A DNA stretch of 64,000 bases from assembly GCA_001029295.1 (NCBI GenBank), contig LDXJ01000063.1:186001-250000 (forward strand), read 5' to 3'. The stretch comes from Peptococcaceae bacterium CEB3. Lineage in GTDB: Bacteria; Bacillota; Desulfitobacteriia; Desulfitobacteriales; Desulfitobacteriaceae. Each line of letters starts with the position of its first letter. Position 1 is the first letter of the stretch. Positions 47,020 to 63,497 of the stretch are shown here, piece after piece. The position numbers were made by a program, and so were the translations under genes. Under the pieces are notes generated by a model that was not told the origin of the DNA, searched no databases, and saw only the letters and a program-made list of their open reading frames with translations.

Positions 47020-47165
47020 GAAGAGGACAGGACTTCGGCCGCACGGCCGGGGAAAGAACCTCTGCCGCGGAGCCTGAGGAAGAACCCCTAGCGTGAAACC
47101 GGAACTTTGGCTAAGTAAAGGTCACTGCGGAATTGGCGCAGGGCCGGGAAAGGTTTAATCTGTCG

Positions 47166-48230
47166 ATGAAGATAGCGACCATAGTGGGTGCAAGGCCCCA
47201 ATTTATCAAGGCGGCTGCGGTGTCGAGAGTTTTACGCCTTGAGCATCAGGAAACGCTCATCCACACGGGGCAGCATTATGACTCTAATATGTCGGATATT
47301 TTCTTTACTGAGTTACATATTCCCCGTCCGGACTATAACCTGGGCGTCGGGTCCGGCCGCCAGGGGGAGCAGACCGGGGCCATTTTGCAGGCTGTGGAAG
47401 AAGTCCTCTTGCAAGCGAAGCCGGACGCCGTTTTGGTTTACGGAGACACAAATTCTACCCTGGGAGGGGCTCTGGCGGCCGCCAAATTGCACATCCCGGT
47501 CTTTCATATCGAAGCGGGCTTGCGCAGCTTTAACCGCGACATGCCGGAAGAAATTAACCGGGTGTTAACGGATCATCTGAGCATGCTCTTGCTTTGTCCG
47601 ACCCAGACGGCGGTGAACAATTTGTCGGCGGAAGGCATCCAAAAGGGGGTTCATCTCAGCGGCGACGTGATGTACGACGCCTTTCGCTACAATAGCCGCC
47701 TGGCGCGTCAGAGCCTCTCCCTGCCGGAGAAGTTGGGGCTAGCGCCTGGGAGCTATATTCTAGGCACGATCCACCGGGCCGAGAACACGGATGATCCCCA
47801 GCGCTTGAAAGGAATTCTTCGGGCCCTGGGGCAAGCGGGCAGACCGGTGATCCTGCCCCTGCATCCCCGCACCCGGAAAGTCATGGACGATCAAGGATTT
47901 GGCGATTTGCTCGAGGGTTCGCAGGTGCGAATCCTCGAACCGGTTGGTTACTTGGACATGATCTGCTTGGAAGAGAATGCCTGGAAGATCCTGACTGATT
48001 CCGGAGGGGTCCAGAAAGAGGCGTACTTCGCGGGAGTTCCGTGTATCACGCTGCGGGATGAAACTGAATGGACGGAGACAGTGGCGGCCGGTTGGAATGT
48101 TTTGGTCGGGGCTGATACACAGTCCATTCTCAAGGCTGTGATAGAGTTTGCGCCGCCACCCGGGCGCCCTCAGATATTTGGCGACGGGGACGCGGCTGGA
48201 AAGTTTCTTAGCGTTTTGAAAGGAGACTGA
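47166..48230 (+). CDS. wbpI: UDP-N-acetylglucosamine 2-epimerase family, WbpI-like
   Basis: 354 residues from the ATG at 47166 with GGAAAGGT upstream. The family motifs are clear: ATIVGARPQFIKAAAVSR, IHTGQHYDSNMSDIFF, VYGDTNSTLGGALAA, HIEAGLRSFNRDMPEEINR, and SGGVQKEAYFAGVPCITLRDETEWTE split by a few residues. In this context it most likely epimerises C2 of UDP-2,3-diacetamido-glucuronate to the manno form (WbpI) rather than acting as WecB on UDP-GlcNAc. Confidence 0.9.
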   Translation: MKIATIVGARPQFIKAAAVSRVLRLEHQETLIHTGQHYDSNMSDIFFTELHIPRPDYNLGVGSGRQGEQTGAILQAVEEVLLQAKPDAVLVYGDTNSTLGGALAAAKLHIPVFHIEAGLRSFNRDMPEEINRVLTDHLSMLLLCPTQTAVNNLSAEGIQKGVHLSGDVMYDAFRYNSRLARQSLSLPEKLGLAPGSYILGTIHRAENTDDPQRLKGILRALGQAGRPVILPLHPRTRKVMDDQGFGDLLEGSQVRILEPVGYLDMICLEENAWKILTDSGGVQKEAYFAGVPCITLRDETEWTETVAAGWNVLVGADTQSILKAVIEFAPPPGRPQIFGDGDAAGKFLSVLKGD

Positions 48231-48234
48231 AAGG

Positions 48235-49335
48235 ATGGCTATTCCGCTGTTGGATCTGAAGGCTCAATATCTGACTATTAAAGAGGAAATCGATGCGGCG
48301 ATTCAGAGCGTTCTGGATTCGGCCAGATTCATCCTCGGCCCGCAGATGAAGGCGCTGGAGCAGGAGACGGCCCAGTATTGCGGGGTCAAAGAAGCGGTGG
48401 CGGTTGGGAACGGGACGGATGCGCTGCTATTGGCCCTGGAGGCTTTGGGTGTCGGCGCCGGGGACGAGGTGATCACCACGCCTTTCACTTTCTTCGCCAC
48501 GGCCGAGACGGTGGCTCTCTTGGGGGCGAAGCCTGTTTTTGCAGATATTGATCCTGTGACCCTGAATCTGGATTTGGCTCAATTGGAAGAGAAAATTACG
48601 GCTAAAACCAAAGCTATCATTCCTGTGCACATCTTTGGCCAGATGATGGATGTGGAGCGGGTTATGGAGATTGCCGCCCGCTACGACCTCAAAGTCATCG
48701 AGGACGCGGCTCAGGCCATGGGGGCGGAATACAACGGGAGGAAGGCGGGCTCGATCGGGCACGCCGGTACTTTCAGCTTCTTCCCGACCAAGAACCTGGG
48801 TGCTTACGGAGACGGCGGCATGGTCATCACGGATGACGAACACCTGGCGGCTCAACTTCGGATGCTGCGTTTTCATGGCTGCCGGACCAAGTATTATCAC
48901 GAAGAGATCGGTCATAACAGCCGTCTTGATGAGATTCAAGCCGCGATTTTGAGGGTGAAGTTCAGATACCTCGATCAATGGAATGAGGCGCGCCGCCAAG
49001 CGGCGTCCGGATATGACAAATTGCTCGAAGATCTGCCCCTGACACTTCCGGGACGGGACCCGAAGGCTAAGCCGATTTACCATCTCTACGTGGTGAGGAC
49101 GGATAGAAGGCAGCAGGTGATGGAACAGCTGGCCGAGGCAGACATCGCCAGTGCTATTTATTATCCTGTGCCTCTTCACTTACAGAAAGCCCTGCGGAAT
49201 CTCGGTTATCAGGAGGGGGATTTCCCCGCGGCCGAGGGTGCTGCCCGGGAGGCTGTGGCTATACCCTGCTATCCGGAGCTCACACGGGAGCAGCAGGAAC
49301 ATATCGCTAGGGTGATGCGTAAAGCTTTGGCGTAG
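48235..49335 (+). CDS. wbpE: DegT/DnrJ/EryC1/StrS sugar aminotransferase, WbpE-like
   Basis: 366 residues, starting 5 bp after the epimerase stop with AAAGGAG upstream. VGNGTDALLLALEALGVG, VIEDAAQAMGA and the PLP lysine in SFFPTKNLGAYGDGGM are typical. FHGCRTKYYHEEIGHNSRLDE fits the WbpE/PglE/PseC group. It should transfer an amino group from glutamate to C3 of the 3-keto uronate produced by the WbpB-like enzyme. It completes the five-gene set. Confidence 0.92.
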   Translation: MAIPLLDLKAQYLTIKEEIDAAIQSVLDSARFILGPQMKALEQETAQYCGVKEAVAVGNGTDALLLALEALGVGAGDEVITTPFTFFATAETVALLGAKPVFADIDPVTLNLDLAQLEEKITAKTKAIIPVHIFGQMMDVERVMEIAARYDLKVIEDAAQAMGAEYNGRKAGSIGHAGTFSFFPTKNLGAYGDGGMVITDDEHLAAQLRMLRFHGCRTKYYHEEIGHNSRLDEIQAAILRVKFRYLDQWNEARRQAASGYDKLLEDLPLTLPGRDPKAKPIYHLYVVRTDRRQQVMEQLAEADIASAIYYPVPLHLQKALRNLGYQEGDFPAAEGAAREAVAIPCYPELTREQQEHIARVMRKALA

Positions 49336-49384: not shown

Positions 49385-50902
49385 TTGAATTGGACCCGTG
49401 ACAACAAGAAACTTGCCTACAGTGTCATCTACAGCTTGTTCATCCTCGGCAATCTACTGCTGGGCGTGCAGCTCTGGGCTGTCGATCTCTACGCGTTTGT
49501 ATTCGGCTTGCTGATTATTAACAAGTTGCAGTGGGAGAGCAAGTCGGAACTCCTTTACAATTTTGTGCTGCTTTTTGCGATCACGGACTTCACCTTTAAT
49601 CTGCCGGTAGGACATTTCAACATCTATTATCTGCACATTACGCTCTTTATCCTGACGGTGAGCATGTTCGTCGAGTTCATGCGCCGCAGGAAAACGTGGA
49701 GTCTCAAAAGCCTTGCCCAGAACCGCTATGTGCTTTTCTTGAGCATATTTATCCTATACATGATTCTCTCTTTGCTCTGGGTAACGCACCTAAAAGCGGC
49801 CCTGAAATACATGGTCGATTATGCCATTATGATCTGCTTCACCTTAGCGGTTTATCGCTACAACCCCAATCTGGCCAAACTGAAGCAGACCGTGAAATTT
49901 CTTTTTTTCCTTGCGGTTCCGGCGATATTCATGGGGTTGCTGGAAATCCTGGATATTCGCATGCCGGTGCGGAACATCTTTATGGACGAAGGATGGTATG
50001 CGAAAGGCCCCTATTACCTGAAAACCATCCCTACGGTGTTCTGGTACAACCCGAACAATTTCGGTACCTTCCTCGTTTTGGCTATGTCCTTTATTTTAGT
50101 GGGAATTGCTTTTGCCAAAGACAGGAGAATCCGTTGGGGTCTGGGTATTCTGCAGGTGGCGATCCTGCTCAACATCATCTTTTCCACTTCCCGAACGGCT
50201 TACATCACGATGCTGGTCACCATGCTGGGGTTTCTTATCTACTTCAGCGTCACCCGGGAGAAGGAGAAGCGCAAACGAGTGTTTGCCTGGATTCTGGTGA
50301 CTCTGGTTGTCTTCTACAGCCTTTCCTTTGTGCCGCAGCTTGACGTCTATTTTGGCAAGTTTAATAATACCGAGTTCCTGAACAAGCTGAGCTTTCATGG
50401 TTCTTACCATCCGACGCCCATCGTAGCTTACGGTGACCAGGGTTCGACCAGTGAACGTTACACCATCCTGGTGGATGTAGTTAAGGGAGTGCTGCTCAAA
50501 GGGCATCCGGAAGGTTTTGGGGTGGCCAATACTCCCTTCTATATCGGCAGCAAAGAAAACACTTTCGGTATCACGAACGTTCACAGTCTATGGTTCGAGA
50601 TTCTGGGGGATTTCGGTATTGGGATTTTCTTGTATTGGATCTTTATCTATCTGAGTTTGCTTTGGGACTTGCTCAAGAGCTGCAAGCTGAGCCGAACCCG
50701 AGCCCCCTACAGTTTTATGAGTTTCCTCTATCTGGGCTTGCTGGCAGCCCTGGCGGGTTTCATTCTCACCTCTTTCGCCCCAAGTTCAGTGATCAACTTT
50801 ACTGAAATGTGGCTCTTACTCAGTCTGGCGGTTCTTGTGGTCAACAAACGTGAGAAATTCCTGGCGGAGGACAAAGGAGAGATCTTCGAAAGGTCTCTTT
50901 AG
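49385..50902 (+). CDS. O-antigen polymerase/ligase-like membrane protein (Wzy-like, first copy)
   Basis: 505 residues from a TTG with a strong AGGAGGAGG ribosome binding site. Eleven or twelve predicted membrane helices. The large loop and following helices carry the Wzy_C pattern (STSRTAYITMLV, KGHPEGFGVANT, NVHSLWFEILGDFGIGIFLY) of O-antigen ligases and polymerases. It probably joins lipid-linked repeat units outside the membrane. A second protein of this superfamily is encoded at 53954. Confidence 0.85.
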   Translation: MNWTRDNKKLAYSVIYSLFILGNLLLGVQLWAVDLYAFVFGLLIINKLQWESKSELLYNFVLLFAITDFTFNLPVGHFNIYYLHITLFILTVSMFVEFMRRRKTWSLKSLAQNRYVLFLSIFILYMILSLLWVTHLKAALKYMVDYAIMICFTLAVYRYNPNLAKLKQTVKFLFFLAVPAIFMGLLEILDIRMPVRNIFMDEGWYAKGPYYLKTIPTVFWYNPNNFGTFLVLAMSFILVGIAFAKDRRIRWGLGILQVAILLNIIFSTSRTAYITMLVTMLGFLIYFSVTREKEKRKRVFAWILVTLVVFYSLSFVPQLDVYFGKFNNTEFLNKLSFHGSYHPTPIVAYGDQGSTSERYTILVDVVKGVLLKGHPEGFGVANTPFYIGSKENTFGITNVHSLWFEILGDFGIGIFLYWIFIYLSLLWDLLKSCKLSRTRAPYSFMSFLYLGLLAALAGFILTSFAPSSVINFTEMWLLLSLAVLVVNKREKFLAEDKGEIFERSL

Positions 50903-50929
50903 GCGGGCGGCTCCGGCGACGGGAGCGGT

Positions 50930-51107
50930 GGCGGGGCGATCCTCGGGCTCGCGGAGAGCTTGCATGGAGAGGGCTTTCACGGAGGGGTTTCCGCGGAGTC
51001 TCTGTGACGAGGGTGGAGCATGCAGCGAAGGTGAAGCCTGGGGCGAAAGCGGAGCATGTAGCGAAAGCGGAGTCTGTAGCGAAGGTGGAGCCTGGGGCGA
51101 AGGTGGG
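50930..51107. repeat. degenerate 15-18-bp tandem repeats before a glycosyltransferase
   Basis: About seven units of the pattern GGTGGAGCCTGGGGCGAA (with T/A and C/G drift) run up to the ribosome binding site of the next gene. They are open in the same frame as the gene, which would give a Ser/Gly/Cys/Glu-rich extension, but the domain starts at 51114 and the array looks like the intergenic repeats elsewhere. Confidence 0.65.
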
Positions 51108-51113
51108 TTGAGT

Positions 51114-52451
51114 TTGCGGGTCCTGATATTGAGCAGTTGGTATCCGAACACACCGAACCCGGTCAAGGGAGTTTTTGTGCGCGAGCAAGCCAGGGCTCTG
51201 CGGGCGTGTGGGTTAGAAGTAGGGGTAGTTTATCCTTTTGACGAGGAGATTCCGGCGGGTGTCGTGCGTCGCGCTGACGAAGAGGGGATAGTCACCTGGC
51301 GGGCGAATTCTCTGGGCGGCCCGCTAAATTCTCGACAGCCGTTCCGGCGCCGCTGGGCCCGTCTCAGCAGCTACCACAGCGCGCTCAAGTTGCTGCGGCA
51401 GGCGGCGGGGCAATTTCAGCCGGATATCCTGCATGCGCATGTCGCTTATCCCGCCGGAATCCTCGCTTACTTTTTCACTCGCGGGCGAGAGTTGCCTTAT
51501 GTCGTCACGGAACACATGTCTTATCTCCGGGATTACACCGCGAAGTGGCAGCATCGCATCCTTCTTAAGGCGGCCTTTGAAAAAGCGCGGCTGGTTATCC
51601 CTGTGAGTCCGGCTTTGGCTGGGCAAATCGAGAGCCTCGGCTGGAATTTGAATCTGAGGGTGCTGCCGAATGTCGTGGATACCGCGCGTTTCACCCCGAA
51701 CGGCGGGCGCGGGGCCGGAGAGGGCTCCGGCCGCAGAGGGACGGACGCGGAGCAAGACGGAGTGAATCCCGGACACAGAGGGACGGACGCAGAACAGGGA
51801 GGAGCGGGCTCCGAACGCAGAGGGACAGATCCCCGACAGGATGAGGCAGCTCCCGGACAGGACGGGGCAGACCGCGAGGGTGGGACGAAAGAGGGCATAG
51901 AAGGTCTTCGGCCGCTGAGACTTCTCTTTGTAGGCGGGATGGATGAGACCGAGGTCAAGGGGCTGCAATTTCTGCTGCCTGCCTTGGCCCGTTTTGCCCG
52001 GGAGCGCCGGTTCCGCCTGGAACTGATTGGGGATGGATCCATGCGAAAACATTATGAAGTGCGGGCACGGGAACTGGGGATCGAGGGAAGCTGCCGGTTC
52101 CGCGGGGTGCTGCCGCCGCAAAAGATGCCCGAACGCTACCGGGAAGCTGACTTCCTCGTGCTTTCCTCGTTGAAGGAGACTTTCGGCTGTGTCTTGATCG
52201 AAGCCATGGCTTCGGGCCTGCCGGTGCTGGCCACGGCCTGCGGAGGGCCGGAAAGTTTGGTTACAGGCGAGACCGGGCTCTTGGTCAAGCCGGGCAGCAG
52301 CGAAGCACTTCTGGACGGTATGCGAGAAATGGCCCGGAAACTTCCTGAATATGAGCCGGCGGTTCTCAGAGCCTATGCCGACGCACACTTCGGGCCGAAG
52401 GCTTTGGCACGAGAACTCAAAGGAATCTATCGGGATGCCCTGGTCAGGTGA
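51114..52451 (+). CDS. GT4-family glycosyltransferase with repeat-encoded linker insertion
   Basis: 445 residues from the TTG at 51114 with AAGGTGG 6 bases upstream. The N-terminal GT-B domain opens RVLILSSWYPNTPNPVKGVF and has HAHVAYPAGILAYF. The C-terminal domain has RLLFVGGMDETEVKGL and the donor-binding SLKETFGCVLIEAMASGLPV. Between the domains (51705-51893) lies a Gly/Arg/Asp-rich insert of about 63 residues with repeated RRGTDAEQ-type words, encoded by units near AGAGGGACGGACGCGGAGCA. The insert is absent from typical family members. It probably adds a sugar to the lipid-linked repeat unit. Confidence 0.88.
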   Translation: MRVLILSSWYPNTPNPVKGVFVREQARALRACGLEVGVVYPFDEEIPAGVVRRADEEGIVTWRANSLGGPLNSRQPFRRRWARLSSYHSALKLLRQAAGQFQPDILHAHVAYPAGILAYFFTRGRELPYVVTEHMSYLRDYTAKWQHRILLKAAFEKARLVIPVSPALAGQIESLGWNLNLRVLPNVVDTARFTPNGGRGAGEGSGRRGTDAEQDGVNPGHRGTDAEQGGAGSERRGTDPRQDEAAPGQDGADREGGTKEGIEGLRPLRLLFVGGMDETEVKGLQFLLPALARFARERRFRLELIGDGSMRKHYEVRARELGIEGSCRFRGVLPPQKMPERYREADFLVLSSLKETFGCVLIEAMASGLPVLATACGGPESLVTGETGLLVKPGSSEALLDGMREMARKLPEYEPAVLRAYADAHFGPKALARELKGIYRDALVR

Positions 52452-52513
52452 GTCTGCGGGACACTGGCGAGAGTGTGAGGTTCGACTTCCGTTTTAAGAG
52501 GAGAACAAACTGC

Positions 52514-53872
52514 ATGGGTTTTACGAAATCCGTCACCATTACTTTTTTGAGCAATATGTTTCTGTTTCTGCTTTCTTTCGTTTCGGCCACCCTCCTTTCC
52601 CGGGTGTTGGGACCGGCGGGAGCCGGGGTCTGGAATGTCGCCAGCAACTTTCTCACCTTTGGCACTTTGATTTTGGGTCTGGGTCTGGCGGCTGCCAACG
52701 TCTTTTTCTTGGGCAAGAATAGGCGGGATTTAGGCGGCATCGTCGGGAATAATATTGTTCTGACTCTGCTCAGTGCCATTATTCTGGTCCCGTTCTACTA
52801 TCTCAATACCCGCTTTCATTTCCAGTTTCTGCGCGGAGTGAGCGACGCGCAAATGCTGATGGTGCTCCTCGCCGTGCCCTTCATGAATTTAAAAGCCTCC
52901 CTGCTTAATGTTCTGCTTGGGTTGCAGGACGTTGTGACATATAATTGGGTTAATGTCGGAGATAAGGTTCTTAACCTCATCCTTTTGGTGGTTCTCTTTT
53001 TCTACCTGGCATCTCCCTCTTCCGCGATTCTGGCGGCCCTGGCGGGCACAGTCATAGTGAACGTCTGGGAGATGGCCATTTTGGTCAGGCTTGTAAGACA
53101 GCGGGATTTTCTCGAAGAAGTCTCAGGGACAGGGGGGCGGCCGAGGCGCGGCGCCCTGCGCTATTTATTTACCTTGGATTTCCCTCTCATGGGCCGGATG
53201 CTGGGCTATGGTCTCAAGGCCCAGGTGGGAAATTTCATCCAGAGACTCAATTACAGTTTGGACGTTTTCATCGTTAACTATTTTCTTCCGCTCAATCAGG
53301 TCGGCATGTACTGGGTCGCCGTGACGCTGGGGAAAACCCTGTGGGCAGTTTCCGGGAGCATCGCCACTGTCATACTGCCGGTTGCGTCCTCTGCCACGAA
53401 TAAAGGGGACCTGGATAGTTTTACGAATCGAGTGACACGGGTGAGCTTGGCCTTGATCATGCTTTTTTCGCTCATTCTTGGCTTAATCAGCAGACCGCTG
53501 ATTATCTGGTGGTTTACCTATCCCTTCGCCCCGGCGGCTGAGGCCTTTCTTTGGCTCTTGCCCGGTGTGGCCATTTTTTCGATTTCCAATATTCTGGCCA
53601 ACTACCTGGCCGGGATCGGCCTGGTGGAGAAGAACATTTATTCCGCGGTAATATCCGGCGTTGTTACGGTAGTGCTGGATTTTATCCTTATCCCGCGCAT
53701 CGGGATCAATGGTGCGTCCATAGCAACCAGCCTTTCCTATATCACATTTACGCTAACCACGCTGTATTTCTACGTCCGGCATACGCACTGCAGGTGGCAG
53801 GATGTTCTCATCCTGAAAGGTACGGACCTGGTACTTGTGCGTCAGACCTTGTTGCAGAGGTTTAAACGGTAA
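52514..53872 (+). CDS. Wzx-type oligosaccharide flippase
   Basis: 452 residues from the ATG at 52514 with AAGAGGAG upstream. About twelve to fourteen membrane helices. SATLLSRVLGPAGAGVWNVA and the later GLVEKNIYSAVISGVVTVVLDFILIP are the pattern of the polysaccharide-biosynthesis branch of the MATE/MVF superfamily. It should flip lipid-linked repeat units across the membrane for the Wzy-like polymerase. It is the only flippase candidate in the window. Confidence 0.9.
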   Translation: MGFTKSVTITFLSNMFLFLLSFVSATLLSRVLGPAGAGVWNVASNFLTFGTLILGLGLAAANVFFLGKNRRDLGGIVGNNIVLTLLSAIILVPFYYLNTRFHFQFLRGVSDAQMLMVLLAVPFMNLKASLLNVLLGLQDVVTYNWVNVGDKVLNLILLVVLFFYLASPSSAILAALAGTVIVNVWEMAILVRLVRQRDFLEEVSGTGGRPRRGALRYLFTLDFPLMGRMLGYGLKAQVGNFIQRLNYSLDVFIVNYFLPLNQVGMYWVAVTLGKTLWAVSGSIATVILPVASSATNKGDLDSFTNRVTRVSLALIMLFSLILGLISRPLIIWWFTYPFAPAAEAFLWLLPGVAIFSISNILANYLAGIGLVEKNIYSAVISGVVTVVLDFILIPRIGINGASIATSLSYITFTLTTLYFYVRHTHCRWQDVLILKGTDLVLVRQTLLQRFKR

Positions 53873-53953: not shown

Positions 53954-55315
53954 GTGAGTTGGCTTCTGCTCATCCTGGCCGTGGCCCTGGTTATCGGGGG
54001 ATGGCGCTATCCGCGTCTGCTCGTTCCCTTGCTCATTGCCACTTTGCCCCTGGAGATATCCCGCACCTGGTTTCCCAAGTTCAAGCATCTGGAGAAACTC
54101 GGAGCTTCTGTGGGAGTTGTCGATCTCGGCAGGATCATGGCACTGGCCGTGGTTCTATACTTCCTTTATGCGGTATTGCGCACACACGGTCCGTGGGCCC
54201 GACATGGAGGCTTGGACGGTCACCTGAACGCGGGAACCTTTCTCCACCGGCCCCGGGCGGGTTGGCGGGACCGGCTGTTCTCCGTTTCAGGGATCTACAT
54301 TCTCTACGGGCTGCTCTCCGTGATTTGGTCGGTTGACCGACTTCATACCCTGACGGGCGCGGTCCGGCTGGGCCTCCTTTGGGTCTTGGGTCTGGCGGTT
54401 TACCGTATCCTAAGCGAAGACCGGGATTACTGGCTGGTGCCGCAGTCTTTTGCCGCAGTGGGTACGGCTTTGGGCGGAGTGGGAGTCTATGAAATGGTGA
54501 GCCGGCATTTTCTCTGGCTGGGGCAGATCTACCAGGTTTTGCACCGCTATAACGCGACCTTTGTGGACGCTAACATCTATGCGCGCTTTCTCGTCTTGGG
54601 CATGCTCGCTACTTTGGCTTGGCTGTTGACCACGGTTCCGCGCGCGGGTCGGGCCGTCGGCTATCTGGCGCTGGCAATTCAGCTGGCGGCGCTTTTGGGC
54701 ACGGGCTCACGCACAGGCTGGTTGGCCTGTGTCCTGGCCTTCATTCTCTTTGCCGTTCTTGTGCCCAGAAAACCCGTCTATGTGATTCTCGGGGGGGCTA
54801 TTCTCCTGGGGGGCGTGGCATTGCTCGTGGACCCGGCTGTTCTCCACCGGATTCAGGATTTGCGCCATGGCCTCTTAGCGGCTTCAACCGAACGCAGCTA
54901 TCTTTGGCGGGCGGGCTGGGACATGTTTGTCAAACACCCCGTCTTTGGAGTGGGGCTGGGTGGTTTCCAGAAGGTGATGTTGACCCACTATGCCGCCGTA
55001 ATTCGGAACGGGGTCAGCCTTTCTCACACGGCTCTGATCACTACGGCAGCGGAGTTGGGCATAATAGGCTTAGGTATCGTGCTCACTTTTCTATTGTTTC
55101 TCTTTTTCAGGGTTGGGCGCGCCGGGCACACGCTGCGCGTAGGAAGCGATTGGTCAGAAAGTTACCCGCGGGCTCTGCTGACGGTCTTTGCCGTTCTGGG
55201 AGTCTTGGTCGTGTTCGTCAGCGCCCAGGGGGAAGGCCGCTTCTGGGAAGACCCCTATCTATGGATTCTTCTCGGGTTGCTCGCGGCCCTGGCGGGTGCG
55301 GAGGAGGTGACCTAA
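53954..55315 (+). CDS. O-antigen ligase/polymerase-like membrane protein (second copy)
   Basis: 453 residues from a GTG with AAAGGAGG upstream. About ten to twelve membrane helices. The conserved core is ATFVDANIYARFLVLGML, GTGSRTGWLACVLAF and the periplasmic-loop motif HPVFGVGLGGFQKVMLTHYA followed by SLSHTALITTAAELGIIGLG, typical of the Wzy_C superfamily. It ends directly against the next gene, whose GTG follows its stop codon. Two such enzymes in one locus may mean one polymerase and one ligase that attaches the polymer to a surface acceptor. Confidence 0.88.
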   Translation: MSWLLLILAVALVIGGWRYPRLLVPLLIATLPLEISRTWFPKFKHLEKLGASVGVVDLGRIMALAVVLYFLYAVLRTHGPWARHGGLDGHLNAGTFLHRPRAGWRDRLFSVSGIYILYGLLSVIWSVDRLHTLTGAVRLGLLWVLGLAVYRILSEDRDYWLVPQSFAAVGTALGGVGVYEMVSRHFLWLGQIYQVLHRYNATFVDANIYARFLVLGMLATLAWLLTTVPRAGRAVGYLALAIQLAALLGTGSRTGWLACVLAFILFAVLVPRKPVYVILGGAILLGGVALLVDPAVLHRIQDLRHGLLAASTERSYLWRAGWDMFVKHPVFGVGLGGFQKVMLTHYAAVIRNGVSLSHTALITTAAELGIIGLGIVLTFLLFLFFRVGRAGHTLRVGSDWSESYPRALLTVFAVLGVLVVFVSAQGEGRFWEDPYLWILLGLLAALAGAEEVT

Positions 55316-56395
55316 GTGCGCCTGTGTTTTCTCGGCGATGCCGGCAGCATCCATCTGCAGCGTTGGCTGGCCTATTTTGTTTCCCTCGGTCATGAGGTTC
55401 ATGTCATCTCGTTTCGGGGCTGTCCAGTCGAGGGCGTTCAGGTGCACCTCTTGGCTTCGGGCCGCGAGGGACGGCTGGCCTATATGAAAGCTCTTACCCG
55501 GGTTAAAGGCATGGTGCGCCGGATTCACCCGGACATTTTGCACGCGCACTACGCCACGAGTTTTGGTCTGCTAGGCGTCATAAGCAAATTTCACCCCTTG
55601 ATCGTATCCGCTTGGGGTTCCGATGTCCTGGTGGCCCCGGTGCGGTCCTACTGGCTGAGAAAGGTGGTGGAGTGTGTTCTTGCAAGGGCAGACGCACTGA
55701 TCTCCGACTCCCTGTACATGTCAGGACGGATGGAAGAACTTTTGCATGGAGTTCCCAAACGCCTGTTGACGGTGACCATGGGCGTTTCCCGCGCTTGGTT
55801 CGACGGGATTGCGCCGGGGGACAAGAAGCCAACACAGATTTTGAGCTTGAGGGGGCACCAGCCCATCTATAATATTGACGTCATCCTGAGAGCGATACCG
55901 GAGACCGTGCGGGCAGTGCCGGAAGCGAGGCTGGTTTTGGCCGGGGAAGGGGAGGAGACCCCCAAGCTTAAGGCTCTGGCGGCCTCGCTCGGGATCGAGC
56001 CTTTTGTCAGGTTCGTGGGGCAGCTGCCACACAGTGAAGTTGAGGCTTATTTAAATGAGTCGGCCATCATGGTGAGTGTTCCCTCCTCTGACGCGACAGC
56101 GGTTTCCCTGCTCGAGGCCATGGCCTGCGGGTCATTCCCGGTGTTATCTGATCTCCCTGCCAATCGGGAATGGGTGAGCGACGGTTTTAACGGGCTGATC
56201 GTGCCGGCCAAAGACGCGGCCGCGCTGGCTGGGGCCATGATTCGCAGTCTGCGGGACGCGGGGCTGAGGGGGCGTGCGCTTGAACGCAACCGGAAAAAGA
56301 TCCTGGAGAGGGCAATTTGGGAGGATAATATGGCCGAGGTCCGGACCTTATACGGCGATTTGCTGGGGATAAATTTCAACAAGGGGTGGGTCTGA
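55316..56395 (+). CDS. GT4-family glycosyltransferase
   Basis: 359 residues from a GTG that immediately follows the previous stop codon; GGAGGTGA within the previous gene is the ribosome binding site. It opens RLCFLGDAGSIHLQRWLAYF. HAHYATSFGLLGVISKFHPL and SAWGSDVL mark the acceptor domain, and PSSDATAVSLLEAMACGSFPV the donor-binding site. Its HAHYATSFGLLG and SAWGSD words are shared with the transferase at 61002, so the two are probably paralogues. Confidence 0.92.
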   Translation: MRLCFLGDAGSIHLQRWLAYFVSLGHEVHVISFRGCPVEGVQVHLLASGREGRLAYMKALTRVKGMVRRIHPDILHAHYATSFGLLGVISKFHPLIVSAWGSDVLVAPVRSYWLRKVVECVLARADALISDSLYMSGRMEELLHGVPKRLLTVTMGVSRAWFDGIAPGDKKPTQILSLRGHQPIYNIDVILRAIPETVRAVPEARLVLAGEGEETPKLKALAASLGIEPFVRFVGQLPHSEVEAYLNESAIMVSVPSSDATAVSLLEAMACGSFPVLSDLPANREWVSDGFNGLIVPAKDAAALAGAMIRSLRDAGLRGRALERNRKKILERAIWEDNMAEVRTLYGDLLGINFNKGWV

Positions 56396-56398
56396 GGC

Positions 56399-57469
56399 AT
56401 GAACATCTACCAAATGTTTCGGGCCTATGGCGGTATGGTTTTCGGCAGGACGGATTACTGGCACCCTGACATGCCGGCCAATGCCGAGCTTACACCCGGG
56501 AGGGTTGCCAAATATCCGGTGGCCATGGGGAGCAAAGCCAACTATGCCGGGGAGTTCGATAGCGGGGCTATTCCTCTGGTCGAGATCGACGGGCATCTCT
56601 GTCACCTGCCCGTGACCATCGCTCAATGGGCTCTGGGACACTATGATGAATATGTAGATCATGGCGGGAACCTTCATCAAACCACTTTTCTTCTCGCTGC
56701 CGATTGGCTCATCGATAACCTAGCGGAGGTTCGGCCGGGTCTTTGGGGTTGGATCAATGAACACGATAAGGAGATCTACGCTCTTAAGGCACCCTGGCTG
56801 AGCGCACTTTCGCAGGGACAGGCCCTCTCTGTCCTGGCCCGGGCCTACCTGGAGACTAAGGACAGGAAATACTTGGCCGCCGGCGACAAGGCTCTGCGCG
56901 CATTTTCCGTGCCCGGGGCGGAGGGCGGCGTTCAGGCCATGCTGGAGGGAGGGGTCTTCTATGAAGAATACCCCTCTGCGATTCCGTCTTATGTTCTCAA
57001 CGGGTTTATTTTCGCGCTGTGGGGCTTGTGGGAGTTCTTTCTGGCCGGGGGAAATTCCGAAGCTAAAGCACTCTATGAGCAAGGTCTGGAGACCCTGAAA
57101 AAGAATGTGATGAGATTTGACGCGGGCCGGCTCAAATGGTCGCTTTATGACCTCTATCCCTTTCGGGTGGCAGACATTGCCAGTATCTTTTATCACAAAC
57201 TGCAAATAGAACAGCTCAGGGCCATGTTCCTGCTCAGTGGGGAGGAAGTCTTTACGGTTGTGGCGCGCCGCTGGCAAAAAGGGCGTCGCAGCCGCCTGAC
57301 CTATTTGCTGGCTACGGTTGCTAAAATACGGCACAAGCTTTCCATCAGACGCCAAAGCAGCTACGTGGCGAATCAGAAGTCAGAGGTCAGAGGTCAGAGG
57401 CAAACCAGAGGCCAGAGGTCAGAAGCCAGAGGTCGGAAGGGAAACGGGGGCGGAAGGGACTTCGAATAG
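56399..57469 (+). CDS. D-glucuronyl C5-epimerase-like protein
   Basis: 356 residues starting 3 bp after the previous gene. The body resembles the catalytic C-terminal domain of heparosan-glucuronate C5-epimerases: NYAGEFDSGAIPLVE, an alpha-barrel with LSALSQGQALSVLARAYLET, EEYPSAIPSYVLNGFIFALW, and SLYDLYPFRVADIASIFYHK near the C-terminal side. It could convert glucuronate to iduronate in the polymer, or act on the related amino-uronic residue made by the Wbp-type enzymes. The last 32 residues (NQKSEVRGQRQTRGQRSEAR onward) are encoded by the heptamer repeat and look added. No signal peptide was seen, so it may act on lipid-linked units inside the cell. Confidence 0.8.
   Translation: MNIYQMFRAYGGMVFGRTDYWHPDMPANAELTPGRVAKYPVAMGSKANYAGEFDSGAIPLVEIDGHLCHLPVTIAQWALGHYDEYVDHGGNLHQTTFLLAADWLIDNLAEVRPGLWGWINEHDKEIYALKAPWLSALSQGQALSVLARAYLETKDRKYLAAGDKALRAFSVPGAEGGVQAMLEGGVFYEEYPSAIPSYVLNGFIFALWGLWEFFLAGGNSEAKALYEQGLETLKKNVMRFDAGRLKWSLYDLYPFRVADIASIFYHKLQIEQLRAMFLLSGEEVFTVVARRWQKGRRSRLTYLLATVAKIRHKLSIRRQSSYVANQKSEVRGQRQTRGQRSEARGRKGNGGGRDFE
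57371..57440 (+). repeat. heptamer repeat array (GTCAGAG type) at the 3' end of a gene
   Basis: About ten 7-bp units of TCAGAGG with drift (CAGAAGT, CAGAGGT, CCAGAGG). It lies inside the last codons of the C5-epimerase-like gene and gives the Arg/Gln/Ser-rich tail. Same family as 33495-33572. Confidence 0.75.
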
Positions 57470-57532
57470 GGGACTACGAAGCCTGACGGAAAGGGAAGCC
57501 CGAGGGAATAAGGAAACCGGAGGATATTGTTG

Positions 57533-59140
57533 ATGGGCGAGCTGAGAGAGCCGCTGAAAAAACCGAAGAAAGTTTTGTTCATTGCGTACTTCTTCCCACC
57601 CTTGGGGGGGAGCGGAGTCCAGCGAACCCTGAAATTCGTAAAGTACCTGCCTCAATTTGGGGTTCAGCCGCTGGTCAGCACCGTGCGCAACGGACATAAT
57701 TTTGCTTATGATGAAAGTTTGCTGGGGGAGGTTCCGGCCTCGGTCCGGGTTTTTCGTTCGAACTCCCTGGAGACTTTGTGGTTGCGCAAGGTGATCGAAA
57801 AAGTAGCCCACAGGGGGCGGGGCACCCAGGCAGAAGCCAACGCAGCGAGTGCATCCGGCGCAGCGAGTGCATCTGGCGCAGCGAGTGCATCCGACGCAGG
57901 GGGTGCATCTGGCGCGCCGGCGCGGGTGGGTGCGATTGGTGTAAAGCTAAAGGGAACCGACGCCCAGGTAGAGGAGAAGGGGCCCGGCCCTTCGCTGCAA
58001 GCGGGGGCATCCGGGGTTCCGGCACGAGCGAAGGAGGACGCTACGGGGGTTCCGGCACGAGCGAAGGAGGACGCCTCCGGAACGATTAAACAGCGGATAT
58101 TCGATCTTATTGACGATTATCTGTTTATCCCGGATTCCAAGGTGCGCTGGCTGCCCCTGGGGTTTCTCTCCTCCGGCCGGGTGGCGCGCCGGGAGAAGAT
58201 CGATGTCCTTTTTTCCTCCTCCTACCCGTACACGGTGCATATCATGGCTCTGTTGGTTCAGAAGGTCCATCGTTGTCCCTGGATTGCCGATTTCCGGGAT
58301 CCCTGGGTGGGCAACGAAGCCATGGCTAAGGACATCGCTTTTCGCAGAAAGCTCGATGCTTGGCTGGAAGGCAAAGTTGTAAAAAACGCCTCGTATGTCG
58401 TCAACGTAACGCCGAGCATTACTGAGATGTACCGGGCGCGTTATCCCGAGTACAGGGAAAAGTTCGTCACGATTACGAATGGCTTTGATCCACAGGATTT
58501 TGCCCGTGTCGTCCCTCATGCCTTTGCCAAGTTTACCCTCATTCACACCGGGATCCTAAGCAAGAAGCGCAGCCCCGAGACTTTGGTCCGCGGACTGGAG
58601 GGTTTGGTGTCAGAGCGCCCGGAGCTGAGGGATAAGATCCAGGTTGTGTTTGTCGGCTATATTCCTGAGGAATTCCGGCAGATGTTCAAGGAGAGCGCGG
58701 TCGCCGACTTATTTGAGGTCTGGCCGTACGTTCCGCACAGCGTCTGTCTGAATTACCTGGCCGGGGCCCAGCTGCAACTGCTGATTTTTGACGATAGTCC
58801 GGAGACGAAGGCCGCCTACAGCGGTAAAATTTTCGATTATATCGGCGCCCAAAAACCCATCCTCGGTTTTCTGCCCGAAGGAGTCGCCGCTGATCTGATT
58901 CGAGAGAAAGGGATCGGCAGTGTCGTAGGGATCGGGGATGTGGAGGGGGCCCAGGCGGCCTTAGCCAGACATTATGAGGAATGGGCCAACGGTGTGCGGA
59001 CAATCGACTCGGTCGAGCGCTGTGCGGAGTTCAGCCGGGTGAGTTTGGCCGGACAGTTGGCCGAACTGATAGAGAGTGCGTCCCGGGCCGTTGAAGCCAA
59101 ACAACAGTACCGTAAGGCAAGGGAACCGGAACTAAGATAA
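57533..59140 (+). CDS. glycosyltransferase with repeat-encoded insertion
   Basis: 535 residues from the ATG at 57533 with GGAGGA 8 bases upstream. The GT4-like GT-B fold is recognisable: VLFIAYFFPPLGGSGVQRTL, SSYPYTVHIMALLVQKVHRC, IADFRDPWVGNEAM, ITNGFDPQDF, LIHTGILSKKRSPETLVRGL and GKIFDYIGAQKPILGF. About 85 residues (roughly 100-185) are an Ala/Ser/Gly-rich insert made by two DNA repeats: four 18-bp units at 57842-57913 and a 33-bp duplication at 58013-58074. Without the insert the length would match relatives. It presumably extends the polymer repeat unit. Confidence 0.88.
   Translation: MGELREPLKKPKKVLFIAYFFPPLGGSGVQRTLKFVKYLPQFGVQPLVSTVRNGHNFAYDESLLGEVPASVRVFRSNSLETLWLRKVIEKVAHRGRGTQAEANAASASGAASASGAASASDAGGASGAPARVGAIGVKLKGTDAQVEEKGPGPSLQAGASGVPARAKEDATGVPARAKEDASGTIKQRIFDLIDDYLFIPDSKVRWLPLGFLSSGRVARREKIDVLFSSSYPYTVHIMALLVQKVHRCPWIADFRDPWVGNEAMAKDIAFRRKLDAWLEGKVVKNASYVVNVTPSITEMYRARYPEYREKFVTITNGFDPQDFARVVPHAFAKFTLIHTGILSKKRSPETLVRGLEGLVSERPELRDKIQVVFVGYIPEEFRQMFKESAVADLFEVWPYVPHSVCLNYLAGAQLQLLIFDDSPETKAAYSGKIFDYIGAQKPILGFLPEGVAADLIREKGIGSVVGIGDVEGAQAALARHYEEWANGVRTIDSVERCAEFSRVSLAGQLAELIESASRAVEAKQQYRKAREPELR
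57842..58074 (+). repeat. in-frame tandem repeats inside a glycosyltransferase gene
   Basis: GCAGCGAGTGCATCCGGC-type 18-bp units occur four times in a row (57842, 57860, 57878, 57896), encoding AASASG. A 29-bp block starting GGGGTTCCGGCACGAGCG occurs at 58013 and 58046 (33-bp period), encoding GVPARAKED twice. Periods are multiples of three, so the frame is kept. Confidence 0.85.
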
Positions 59141-59322
59141 CCGTATGCAGGACCCACTGGAAATAAGAGCGGCGCAAGTCTAACCATATCGAGTGTAGGA
59201 TTAAGGGAAGTAAGAGCGTCGGAGGTCGGGTCTGCGCAAGCAGGATTAGCGCAAGCGCAAGCAAGATCGGCGCAACCGGGATAAACGGAAGCGAGACTGG
59301 GATCACTGAAGGAGATGTGGTC
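59141..59322. repeat. short degenerate repeats before a glycosyltransferase
   Basis: 59235-59300 contains units around GCGCAAGCAAGATCGG and GGGATAAACGGAAGCGAGACT. No gene is present. Confidence 0.5.
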
Positions 59323-60579
59323 GTGCGTATTCTCATGCTGACACAATATTTCCCCCCGGAGACCGGGGCGGCCCAGGTTCGGCTGCTGGAAATCGCCAAG
59401 GGGATCCGGGCGGCGGGGCACAAGGTGGAAGTGGTCACGGCCTTTCCCAACCACCCCGAAGGGATCATCCCGGCTCCCTACCGCGGGAGATTTTTCCGGC
59501 GGGACGAGGTGGAGGGAATACCCGTTTATCGCACCTGGATCTACCCGGTGCCTAGGGGAAGCTTCTGGAAACGGCTCCTCAATTATTTTTCCTTTGTCTT
59601 TTCCTCTGCTTGGGGGATTCTTAAGGCCGGTCCGGCCGATTACCTCTTTGTTGAAAGCCCTCCGCTCTTCCTCGGCTTCACGGCCATGTTTGCCAGACGG
59701 GTAAAAAAGGCCAAAGTAATTTTCAACGTCTCGGACCTCTGGCCGGAGTCGGCGGTTTCTCTGGGGCTCGTCACGAACACGACTTTGATCAGGCTTACCG
59801 GACTTTTGGAGGAACACCTTTACAAGATGGCCTGGCGGATTTCGACTCAGACTGAAGGAATCGTCCGGACTTTGCGGGAACGGGGGATTCCGGCGGAGAA
59901 GCTGGTTTTGCTGCCCAACGGGGTGGACCCCGATCTCTTTCAGCCGGGGGACCCCGAGCGGAGGCTGGCGGAAGAGCTGGACCTACAAGGTAAATTTGTC
60001 ATCCTTTACGCCGGGACAATGGGCTACGCGCACGGGTTGGAGGTGGCCCTGCGGGCGGCTGATATCCTGAGGAAAAAGGAAGAGGGAAGGGACGTCGTCT
60101 TTCTCTTCGTCGGAGACGGCTCAGAGCGGCCGCGGCTGGCGAAGACGGCTTGGGAACTGGGGCTTGACAACATCCGCTGGGTTCCGTTTCAGCCGCTCGG
60201 CGAGATCCACCGTTACTACAACCTGGCAGACGTCAACCTTTCTACGCTCAGACGCTACAAATTGGCGGAGGGAGTCCGTCCCTCCAAAGTTTTTCCGGGG
60301 CTCGCCAGTGCCAAACCTCTGATCTATGTGGGGGAAGGGGAAGGCGCGAAAATCGTCGAGGAAAGCGGCGGCGGGCTGATCCTGCCGCCGGAGGAGCCGG
60401 AGCGCTTGGCGGAGGCTGTGCTCACGCTTAAGTCCGATCCGCGGCTGCGTGAGGAAATGGGCCGGCGGGGCCGGGAATATGTGATCAAGCATTATGCCTG
60501 GCAGTCGCTCGTCCGGCGCTGGCTCGCGGACATGGGATTGCTGCGAGACGAAAACCGGTCGCCGCTGGCCGGTCGGTAG
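59323..60579 (+). CDS. WbuB-like GT4 glycosyltransferase
   Basis: 418 residues from the GTG at 59323 with GAAGGAG 8 bases upstream; a GTG two codons earlier is too near the site. RILMLTQYFPPETGAAQVRL, NHPEGIIPAPYRGRFFRRDE and SDLWPESAVSLGLV are typical of WbuB-type transferases (often adding FucNAc or a related sugar to an undecaprenyl-linked acceptor). GVRPSKVFPGLASAKPLIYV is the donor-side signature. It is part of the polysaccharide locus. Confidence 0.92.
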   Translation: MRILMLTQYFPPETGAAQVRLLEIAKGIRAAGHKVEVVTAFPNHPEGIIPAPYRGRFFRRDEVEGIPVYRTWIYPVPRGSFWKRLLNYFSFVFSSAWGILKAGPADYLFVESPPLFLGFTAMFARRVKKAKVIFNVSDLWPESAVSLGLVTNTTLIRLTGLLEEHLYKMAWRISTQTEGIVRTLRERGIPAEKLVLLPNGVDPDLFQPGDPERRLAEELDLQGKFVILYAGTMGYAHGLEVALRAADILRKKEEGRDVVFLFVGDGSERPRLAKTAWELGLDNIRWVPFQPLGEIHRYYNLADVNLSTLRRYKLAEGVRPSKVFPGLASAKPLIYVGEGEGAKIVEESGGGLILPPEEPERLAEAVLTLKSDPRLREEMGRRGREYVIKHYAWQSLVRRWLADMGLLRDENRSPLAGR

Positions 60580-61001
60580 CGGTCAGGAACCGGAGTCAGG
60601 CGTTGGGAAGGGAAAAAGCCCGAAATGGCGACGTCGGGACGCGGAAGGCCTAAACATTTGGTGACTTAGAAGACAGGTGTCCGGAAGTCGGAGTCAGAGC
60701 TTGAAGTTTGGAGTCAGAGCCTGGAATTTGGAGTTTGGAGTCAGGGTTTGGAGTTTGTGAGTTTGGAGTCAGCGCTCGGAGTTTGAAGTTAGAGTTCGGA
60801 GTTTGAAGTTAGAGTTCGGAGTTTGGAGTAAAGAGTCTGGAATTTGGAGTCGGAGCTTCGAACTAGAGTTTGGAGTTTGGAGTTAGAGTTTGGAGGCGGT
60901 GCTTAGAGCCCGAAATTTGGGGTTCGAGTGAGGGTTCTCTGGTTTCTGGCTTCTGGCTTCTGACCTCTGACCTCTGATTCCGGTAAGGGGGGTGAACGGG
61001 A
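60580..61001. repeat. 422-bp gap of degenerate GAGTTTGGAGTCAGAG repeats, ending in an inverted heptamer array
   Basis: 60670-60900 is almost entirely units of 12-20 bp built from GGAGTTTGGAGTCAGAGCTT with drift. 60936-60980 is the heptamer family in reverse orientation (TTCTGGC, TTCTGAC, CTCTGAC, CTCTGAT). No gene is present. The ribosome binding site of the next gene follows at once. Confidence 0.75.
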
Positions 61002-62126
61002 ATGGCGAAGTTGGTGCTGCTTGCCAATGCGGCAAGCCCTCATACGGAAAAATGGGCCTCAGAACTCGCCCGGCGGGGCTGGCAGGTTGAGATTATCAGT
61101 TTTCTGCCCGCATCCATTCCCTCGGTCAAAGTGCACGTCACCCCGCCGTTTTTTGGGGCCAAGGCGGATGTCGTCGTCCGCCGGAACTGGATCAAGAAAG
61201 AAATCGCCCACATCAGGCCGGACCTGGTGCACGCCCATTATGCCACCAGTTTCGGCTTGCTCGGGGCCTTGACCGGGCGTCACCCCTTGCTCATCTCAGC
61301 CTGGGGGAGCGACATTTTTTCCTTTCCCCGCAAATCCTTGTTACACCGCAAGCTCTTGGAATGGACGTTGAAGCGGGCGGACGTGCTTTGTTCCACCAGC
61401 CGGGTCATGGCCCGGGAGATGCAGCGCTACGTGGGCGAAGAGCGGGATATTGAGGTGATTCCCTTCGGAGTGGATGTCGAGAGCTTTGCCCCGTTACACT
61501 CCCGTACCGGTCCGACCGATGTTCGGATAGATACCGCGTACGCGGAGGGACATCCTGAGCCGGAGGGTCGTTCCGAGCACCCGGTGATCTTCGGGGTCGC
61601 CAAGTATCTGCAACCCGTTTACGGGCTGGATGTTTTACTCAGGGCCTTCGCCGAATTGGAACGGAGGCTGCCGGGGCGGGCCGTGCTCAGGATCGCCGGG
61701 GACGGGCCGGACAAAAACCGGCTGCACAAGCTGGCCAAGCACCTGGAGGTTTGGTCCAAAGTGGAATGGTCCGGACTCATTCCCAACCGCAGAGTAGCCG
61801 CTTTCTACCGGGAGCTGGACGTGGTGGTCGTCCCCTCCCATCAGGAGAGTTTTGGGGTGACGGCCGTCGAGGGATCCGCCTGCGGGCGCCCGATTATCGC
61901 CAGCAAAGTCGGCGGGCTGCCGGAAGTGGTGACTGATCATGAAACAGGTCTCCTCATTCCGCCTGGGAATGTGCGAGAACTCAGCGCCGCCATGGAATAC
62001 ATGGTCAGGCATCCCGTGGAGCGCCGGCTCTTCGGCGAGGCAGGAAGACGCTTTGTTTTGGCGAATTATAATTGGATGGAGAATGTCTCGCAGATGGAGC
62101 GGGTATACAGGCGGCTGCTGGGATAG
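61002..62126 (+). CDS. GT4-family glycosyltransferase
   Basis: 374 residues, ATG preceded by GGGGGGTGA. KLVLLANAASPHTEKWASEL, HAHYATSFGLLGALTGRHPL, ISAWGSDIF and the donor-binding SHQESFGVTAVEGSACGRPI are standard for GT4. Similarity to the protein at 55316 in the acceptor domain suggests an ancient duplication and a related acceptor. The segment around residues 165-185 (LHSRTGPTDVRIDTAYAEGH) is a variable loop. Confidence 0.92.
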   Translation: MAKLVLLANAASPHTEKWASELARRGWQVEIISFLPASIPSVKVHVTPPFFGAKADVVVRRNWIKKEIAHIRPDLVHAHYATSFGLLGALTGRHPLLISAWGSDIFSFPRKSLLHRKLLEWTLKRADVLCSTSRVMAREMQRYVGEERDIEVIPFGVDVESFAPLHSRTGPTDVRIDTAYAEGHPEPEGRSEHPVIFGVAKYLQPVYGLDVLLRAFAELERRLPGRAVLRIAGDGPDKNRLHKLAKHLEVWSKVEWSGLIPNRRVAAFYRELDVVVVPSHQESFGVTAVEGSACGRPIIASKVGGLPEVVTDHETGLLIPPGNVRELSAAMEYMVRHPVERRLFGEAGRRFVLANYNWMENVSQMERVYRRLLG

Positions 62127-62333: not shown

Positions 62334-63497
62334 ATGTCTCGTCAAGAGTTTTTACCTTATGCTTTACCATTGATTGAAGAGGATGATATTGCCGAAGTGG
62401 TGGACAGCCTGAAATCCAACTGGATCAGCAAAGGCCCCAAGACCGCGGAGTTCGAGAAGCGTTTTGCTGAATACGTGGGAGCTAAGCACGCTGCGGCCGT
62501 CAATTCCTGCACGGCCGGCCTCTATCTCTCCCTGGTGGCCGCGGGCATCGGGCCGGGGGACGAGGTTATTACCACGCCCATGACTTTCGTCGCTTCGGCT
62601 AACGTGGTACTCCATTGCGGAGCCAAGCCGGTCTTTGTCGATATCGATCCTGTGACCATGATTCTGGATGTGACCAAAATTGAGGCGGCTATCACCCCAC
62701 GCACCAAGGCCATTATCCCCGTGCATATCGCCGGGCACCCCTGCCCGATGGACGAAATTATGGCTCTCGCCAAGAAATACCGCCTCTTTGTGTTGGAGGA
62801 CGCGGCACACGCCGTCTATACTAAGTACAAAGGAAAACTGATAGGCACCCTGGGCAACGCCACCAGCTTTTCCTTTTATGCCACGAAGAACCTGGCGACC
62901 GGCGAAGGGGGCATGGTTACCACCGACGATGAGGCCCTGGCGGAGAAGATCCGGATCATGAGTCTGCACGGGATGAACCACACGGCTTGGAACCGCTACA
63001 GCTCGGCCGGTTCCTGGTACTATGAGGTCCTTTATCCCGGCTATAAGGACAATATGACGGATATTCAGGCGGGGCTGGGTTTGACCCAACTGGCCAAGCT
63101 GGAGAGAATGCAGGGCAGGCGGAAAGAGATCGCCGCCCGCTATAACGAAGCCTTCGGCCGCATGCCCGAACTGGAAACGCCGGTGGAGATGGAATATGCC
63201 CGTCACGCCTGGCACCTTTATATCATTAAACTCAACCTCGACAAGCTTACCATTGACCGGAACCGGTTTATTGAAGAGCTAAAGGGGCAAAATATCGGCA
63301 CAAGCGTACACTTCATTCCGGTGCATTTCCACCCCTACTACCGGGAGACCTTCGGCTACAAACCCGGGGATTATCCCCAGACGGAGGCCGTCTTCGAACG
63401 CATCATCTCTCTGCCGCTCTATCCCAGGATGACCGATCAGGATGTCGAAGACGTGATTGAGGCTGTGAGGGCGATTGTGGAGAAAGCGCGGCGCTGA
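62334..63497 (+). CDS. DegT/DnrJ/EryC1/StrS aminotransferase, PseC/ArnB-like
   Basis: 387 residues with GAAAGGAG upstream. SLKSNWISKGPKTAEFEKRF, VNSCTAGLYLSLVAAGIGPG, VLEDAAHAVYTKYKG and the PLP lysine in SFYATKNLATGEGGM are typical of aminotransferases that act at C4 of UDP-4-keto-6-deoxy sugars (PseC, PglE, ArnB). The likely substrate is the product of the 4,6-dehydratase encoded at 41255, at the other end of the locus. It differs clearly from the WbpE-like enzyme at 48235. Confidence 0.92.
   Translation: MSRQEFLPYALPLIEEDDIAEVVDSLKSNWISKGPKTAEFEKRFAEYVGAKHAAAVNSCTAGLYLSLVAAGIGPGDEVITTPMTFVASANVVLHCGAKPVFVDIDPVTMILDVTKIEAAITPRTKAIIPVHIAGHPCPMDEIMALAKKYRLFVLEDAAHAVYTKYKGKLIGTLGNATSFSFYATKNLATGEGGMVTTDDEALAEKIRIMSLHGMNHTAWNRYSSAGSWYYEVLYPGYKDNMTDIQAGLGLTQLAKLERMQGRRKEIAARYNEAFGRMPELETPVEMEYARHAWHLYIIKLNLDKLTIDRNRFIEELKGQNIGTSVHFIPVHFHPYYRETFGYKPGDYPQTEAVFERIISLPLYPRMTDQDVEDVIEAVRAIVEKARR

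Follow-up and report, generated by a model that had tools for sequence, protein, structure and literature searches.

L-configured diacetamido-uronic acids are found in bacterial surface glycans. In Bordetella, L-GalNAc3NAcA comes from UDP-D-ManNAc3NAcA by way of WbmF, WbmG and WbmH, and the proposal is that SDR enzymes work here at the level of the nucleotide sugar, through a 4-keto intermediate (PMC2279256). The WbpA-B-E-D-I pathway of P. aeruginosa and T. thermophilus stops at UDP-D-ManNAc3NAcA, with no C5 step described for it in the available part of the source (PMC10622841). With regard to the C5-epimerases, the available part of a further source states that animal D-glucuronyl C5-epimerase (GLCE) acts on long chains and not on short lipid-linked ones, and that a single bacterial D-glucuronyl C5-epimerase had been identified by June 2026 (PMC13308652). 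The enzyme of Bermanella marisrubri (Raedts 2013, via PMC13308652) is likewise bacterial and was given the GLCE mechanism by the alignment there, although it was assayed on O-desulfated heparin; it is set beside the protein discussed here on the strength of that description. Agl32 of Halobacterium salinarum, according to the same available text, epimerises a uronate at C5 in a short glycan that is still on its lipid and has yet to cross the membrane, but on GlcA and with a different active site that lacks the GLCE residues (PMC13308652).

The window analysed in this study, a stretch of 64,000 nucleotides from Peptococcaceae bacterium CEB3, carries an intact open reading frame at exactly 56399-57469 on the forward strand, encoding a protein of 356 aa. 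It is compact and cytoplasmic and belongs to the D-glucuronyl C5-epimerase family. The PF06662 (C5-epim_C) profile covers residues 125-294 with an E-value of 1.3e-50 and a score of 171.9 bits (cut-off 23.3), and in a phmmer search of the PDB residues 91-294 resembled zebrafish and human GLCE (2e-30 to 3e-28); GLCE chains were the only significant matches, the fourth row, with an E-value of 0.55, being noise. None of the NCBIfam profiles matched the protein at E ≤ 0.01. The AlphaFold model, made from an alignment of seven sequences, is of moderate confidence (pTM 0.73, mean pLDDT 67.7), and its top Foldseek matches were human and zebrafish GLCE. VIA-align superposed it on the GLCE chains with Z-scores of 23.0-23.2 over 239-245 residues at 2.6-3.0 Å (for 6i01_B, Z 23.2 over 242 residues at 3.0 Å with 28% identity), and the next-best fold, a GH76 mannanase, reached a Z-score of 14.6. 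As middling Z-scores are common among helical folds, the fold is assigned from this gap of 8.6 together with the sequence match. Epimerisation is its likely activity. The glucuronyl C5-epimerase-like identity and the coordinates proposed in the preliminary description are borne out by the profile, PDB and fold matches, with the qualification that the protein ends in an unconserved tail of ~29 residues that derives from a repeat, most of which is missing from relatives. This tail is the translation of a 7-bp tandem repeat (TCAGAGG) at 57373-57434, and a similar repeat is present on the opposite strand at 60957-60978.

Five key residues are given for human GLCE in the available part of PMC13308652, namely E499, Y500, N510, Y560 and Y578. 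In the phmmer alignment these correspond by motif and spacing to E190, Y191, N201, Y250 and Y265 of the CEB3 epimerase, with the 10-residue spacing between Y500 and N510 preserved and the loop ahead of Y578 three residues shorter. The preliminary description had called for a check of the catalytic tyrosines and would have been contradicted by absence of the GLCE catalytic residues; all five align, Y191, Y250 and Y265 among them. Across the 13 aligned homologues E190, N201, Y250 and Y265 are invariant, and Y191 is present in 11, being replaced by Thr in G431 and by Val in G317. This counts against the main reading developed below, as these two lineages otherwise support it and may be altered or have a different mechanism. 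The aligned set leaves out the Strep_L093 row, a wrong-frame ORF, and the viral_contigs matches L133-L138 were used for the residue columns only, L136 and L137 having no frame. An Agl32-type enzyme was ruled out by the presence of the GLCE residues. Also counting against our main reading, the alignment behind the model is shallow, and pLDDT falls below 50 at residues 245-264 of the model, a segment with Y250 inside it and Y265 at its border.

A Kyte-Doolittle scan with 19-residue windows found no signal peptide or membrane helix in the epimerase, in agreement with the earlier remark that it lacks an obvious export signal. The best window of the N-terminal part scored 0.13 and no window of the whole protein exceeded 1.51, and the ATG used is the earliest start downstream of the preceding stop. 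Homologues in G056 (1.71), G369 (2.96) and G205 (2.42) do have N-terminal hydrophobic segments, so that PF06662 holds both exported and cytoplasmic branches. Compared with animal GLCE (human 6HZZ, zebrafish 4PW2), the catalytic domain is homologous (28% identity over 242 residues) and the five catalytic residues are shared, but the animal architecture of an N-terminal signal or anchor and an extra beta-domain in the middle was not found: the protein is cytoplasmic, has 356 aa against 617 in human numbering, and 242 residues within 23-307 of its model align across residues 159-617 of the human enzyme. It also differs in a gene context that gives a diacetamido-uronate and not GlcA.

The preliminary description placed the gene among glycosyltransferases beside a uronic-acid pathway, and profile matches agree, with the pathway upstream in the same direction and glycosyltransferases on both flanks. 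The names Wbp, Pgl, Wzx and Wzy are used here in part as labels for genes known by their family matches. All genes of the window named below are on the forward strand. A UDP-HexNAc 4,6-dehydratase (PglF/WbpM-like, 41219-43126) was identified by profile matches, and profile and PDB matches identified a WbpA-type UDP-HexNAc 6-dehydrogenase (43182-44537), a WbpB-type Gfo/Idh 3-dehydrogenase (44739-45836) and a WbpE-type DegT aminotransferase (48235-49335). A left-handed beta-helix (hexapeptide) transferase at 45952-47019, with QdtC as its best PDB match, takes the WbpD role by type and not by orthology, and a WbpI-type UDP-GlcNAc3NAcA 2-epimerase at 47133-48230 was recognised from PDB scores and diagnostic residues. 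With the acetyltransferase counted by type only (QdtC-like), all five enzyme types of the WbpA-B-E-D-I pathway are therefore together in the window, as are the WbpI specificity residues (PMC10622841, available part). There follow, each by a profile match, two Wzy_C polymerase/ligase-type proteins (49385-50902 and 53954-55315), a Wzx-type flippase (52448-53872) and five GT4-type glycosyltransferases, of which two lie further upstream and downstream (50835-52451 and 61002-62126), one ends 3 bp before the epimerase gene (55316-56395), one is its immediate 3' neighbor (57527-59140) and one comes after that (59317-60579). A DegT aminotransferase (PseC/PglE-like, 62334-63497) was found by profile matches, and an initiating sugar transferase (PF02397) by a profile match just beyond the window, at 250224-250922 of contig C63 of G000. 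The glycosyltransferase at 57527-59140 has an Ala/Ser/Gly-rich insert encoded by an 18-bp tandem repeat (4.2 copies, 57841-57915).

The uronic acid made by this cluster can be judged from its dehydrogenase and its 2-epimerase. The 43182 dehydrogenase scored higher with UDP-HexNAc models (293, 270 and 227 bits) than with UDP-Glc models (176 and 151 bits), and among PDB entries it matched a hypothetical UDP-ManNAcA dehydrogenase best. When the genome, which is 98.5% complete, was searched with TIGR03026, this gene was the only match above the cut-off, six others being weak and partial. A query with the TuaD-type Ugd of G001, a sister genome, which itself scores 525 bits to TuaD, found no Ugd in the CEB3 genome and matched only the 43182 paralogue, at 26%; with no Ugd found at this completeness, a route to a GlcA donor was not found either. 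For the 47133 2-epimerase the best PDB matches were the T. thermophilus UDP-GlcNAc3NAcA 2-epimerase (8sxv), at 420 bits compared with 147 for 1f6d. According to the available part of PMC10622841, specificity for UDP-GlcNAc3NAcA is marked by the changes Ala18, Tyr96 and Trp307, and all three equivalents are present in the 47133 protein. As a control, the Trp was conserved in 30/30 distinct homologues of at least 45% identity and the Tyr in all but one (Phe), whilst Arg replaced the Trp in 15/15 paralogues of 32-42% identity from GLCE-positive genomes. The first set has 31 rows, with the window locus entered twice, and L115, L121, L126 and L146, which gave no usable frame, were uncounted. NCBIfam calls the 47133 protein wecB (308 bits against a cut-off of 210), but a plain WecB was rejected in favor of the WbpI type on the specificity residues and PDB scores. 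The preliminary description had offered two substrates, and of these the diacetamido-uronic residue is favored; formation of IdoA from GlcA is unlikely in CEB3, because the WbpA-type enzyme is the single NDP-sugar dehydrogenase above the cut-off and no Ugd was found.

Eight genomes of the same family (G000, G001, G003, G005, G007, G013, G019 and G036) have the epimerase in a wbp-type cluster, and the same arrangement is found on a 10-kb contig (L006) of Desulfosporosinus SbF1. In the near relative Acididesulfobacillus acetoxydans the epimerase shares 87% identity with the CEB3 protein across the aligned part. A glycosyltransferase of the 57527 type is directly downstream of the epimerase in 9/9 of these related clusters, and was found in 0/6 wbp clusters that have no epimerase (G006, G012, G014, G037, G038 and G039; 18-20 kb each). 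In G005 and G013 the epimerase gene comes directly behind wbpA, yet is then followed by the same type of glycosyltransferase; in both genomes a single protein of ~725 aa (L075:2159-4336 and L080:2110-4275) is a fusion that corresponds to the 61002 and 55316 glycosyltransferases. Counting against the main reading, the WbpA-type gene of G007 is ~65 kb from the epimerase, and the epimerase cluster holds a WbpI-type gene in only 3/8 family genomes (G000, G001 and G003), which form one clade of the epimerase tree with a support of 0.997. The gene is absent from G005, G007, G013, G019 and G036, whose only 2-epimerases are paralogues of 35-42% identity, with Arg at the diagnostic position wherever a frame was obtained. 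The epimerase is thus retained with either a manno or a gluco donor, which predicts L-gulo or L-ido products.

Beyond the family, 398 genomes sampled evenly across the phylum were surveyed. PF06662 matched at E ≤ 0.001 in 20 of these, of which 13 were dropped, leaving seven clear cases; 12 of the dropped matches were at 2e-5 to 9e-4, mostly over ~50 profile positions, and the other was G358 (68 positions, 4e-12). G002 (8e-4) was left out. A WbpA-type dehydrogenase was present in 7/7 positive genomes and 89/391 others (96/398 overall; one-sided Fisher p = 4.0e-5), and a WbpI-type epimerase in 5/7 and 27/391 (32/398 overall; p = 4.6e-5), both tests ignoring phylogeny and richness in polysaccharide genes. 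The unrelated lineages G431, G317 and G205 have the PF06662 gene and WbpA/B/E/I-type genes in one locus, with a WbpD-type gene that is clear in G431 and G317 and a weak fragment match only in G205. Order-level searches around G431 (1/22) and G317 (1/14) found no further members. Two PF06662 stretches occur in a 918-aa protein of G205 (L089:8831-11584), which has a hydrophobic N-terminus and is encoded beside wbp genes and a WbpI-type epimerase. Against the main reading, the PF06662 gene and the wbp cluster of G369 are on different contigs. Two more genomes count against it: the PF06662 protein of G056 has a hydrophobic N-terminus and is encoded away from the wbp cluster, and the G394 epimerase is clustered with a Ugd (46% identical to that of G001, ~11 kb off), its wbp genes being on another contig. 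PF06662 is not uniform, therefore, since one lineage pairs the epimerase with Ugd.

Our best reading, which we hold with slightly better than even confidence, is that the protein works in the cytoplasm as a C5-epimerase of lipid-linked repeat units to give L-GulNAc3NAcA, or L-IdoNAc3NAcA where WbpI is lacking. The cluster would produce UDP-GlcNAc3NAcA, which the WbpI-type enzyme would convert to UDP-ManNAc3NAcA, and glycosyltransferases would place the 2,3-diacetamido-uronic residue in an undecaprenyl-linked repeat unit. Ahead of flipping by Wzx, the epimerase would use the Glu/Tyr/Tyr set familiar from animal GLCE to remove the C5 proton and return one on the opposite face, converting D-ManNAc3NAcA to L-GulNAc3NAcA; in relatives without WbpI the same enzyme would convert D-GlcNAc3NAcA to L-IdoNAc3NAcA. 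We infer the activity, which residue is the target and at what stage it is epimerised, the lipid-linked stage because no export route is visible, the cluster is of the Wzx/Wzy type, and known epimerases need surrounding sugars (PMC13308652, available part). For such a stage Agl32 is the best parallel in function. The preference of animal GLCE for long chains counts against this reading. The broader proposal, that a Bacillota branch of the heparan-epimerase family acts on lipid-linked 2,3-diacetamido-uronic residues to give L-GulNAc3NAcA or L-IdoNAc3NAcA, seems to us evenly balanced. We know of no precedent for a GLCE fold with so bulky a substrate, a further point against the main reading.

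The epimerase may instead have a nucleotide sugar as its substrate and convert UDP-ManNAc3NAcA to UDP-L-GulNAc3NAcA, with transfer of the L-sugar by the neighboring glycosyltransferase. A compact cytoplasmic protein without the animal beta-domain would suit such a role, as would the position of the gene directly behind wbpA in G005 and G013. The invariant partner of the gene is nevertheless a glycosyltransferase and not a pathway gene, the GLCE activities described in the available part of PMC13308652 concern in-chain residues, and even the unrelated archaeal Agl32 is said there to require sugars on both sides, so we consider this unlikely. The classical conversion of D-GlcA to L-IdoA within the repeat unit, as in the animal and Bermanella enzymes, has in its favor that the closest characterized relatives are GlcA epimerases (PMC13308652, available part), that the G394 cluster pairs PF06662 with a real Ugd, and that a TuaD-type Ugd is encoded at other genomic sites in several relatives. 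It is quite unlikely in CEB3, where no Ugd was found in the genome, the adjoining dehydrogenase scores as UDP-HexNAc and not UDP-Glc type, and the cluster has WbpB/D/E/I-type genes; it was rejected as the main reading on the first of these.

It is also conceivable that no epimer is made at all, the protein being glycan-binding or a lyase that uses the same abstraction of the C5 proton. The helical barrel is a fold common to hydrolases and other epimerases, and some homologues belong to the tail modules of phages, a setting in which a binding or cleaving protein is plausible. With catalytic-type residues intact, however, and with a lyase inside a cytoplasmic assembly cluster likely to be self-defeating, this seems very unlikely.

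Searches of the open-licence literature found no paper that connects PF06662 with a wbp pathway or deals with L-GulNAc3NAcA synthesis, and the findings suggest a known family in a setting that points to a new substrate. If action on lipid-linked units is true, a D-sugar donor would be made first and its stereochemistry fixed later on the lipid carrier, a different logic from the SDR route at the nucleotide-sugar level, and the enzyme would be a GLCE type that accepts an N-acetylated substrate, opening a second route to L-configured diacetamido-uronates that does not depend on SDR enzymes. Clusters that have WbpI and those that lack it, with manno and gluco substrates respectively, would then be a natural experiment on the tolerance of the active site. 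If the product is IdoA after all, the protein would be an ordinary further bacterial member of the family. For the production of heparin-like sugars, expression of a small soluble bacterial GLCE could in addition be easier than that of the animal enzyme.

The statement in the preliminary description that bacterial examples are few holds for characterized enzymes, of which the available part of PMC13308652 names one, but not for sequences, since PF06662 was also found on plasmids of Streptomyces, Deinococcus and Priestia and in phages. The Priestia megaterium plasmid (L090) carries the epimerase together with two DegT aminotransferases, a dehydrogenase of the UDP-HexNAc type and a WbpI-type enzyme, with no Gfo/Idh gene detected at the locus; the cluster adjoins spore-coat and exosporium genes and may thus make a glycan of the spore surface. 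Around the matches on Streptomyces (H1, H4) and Deinococcus (H6) plasmids no wbp cluster was recognisable within 12-20 kb on each side. Large PF06662 proteins of Streptomyces plasmids (L092, L093) follow FG-GAP repeat proteins near polymorphic-toxin-type genes. PF06662 is carried by 15 P. aeruginosa phage records. In tail modules, behind tape-measure or tail-tip-like genes, the domain occurs in proteins annotated as hypothetical in Pseudomonas phage vB_Pae_BR161a (L139:19752-21398, 4e-35) and Bradyrhizobium phage ppBeUSDA76-1 (L140:9587-10672, 1e-44), and these phage domains may act on glycans of the host surface by binding, epimerisation or cleavage.
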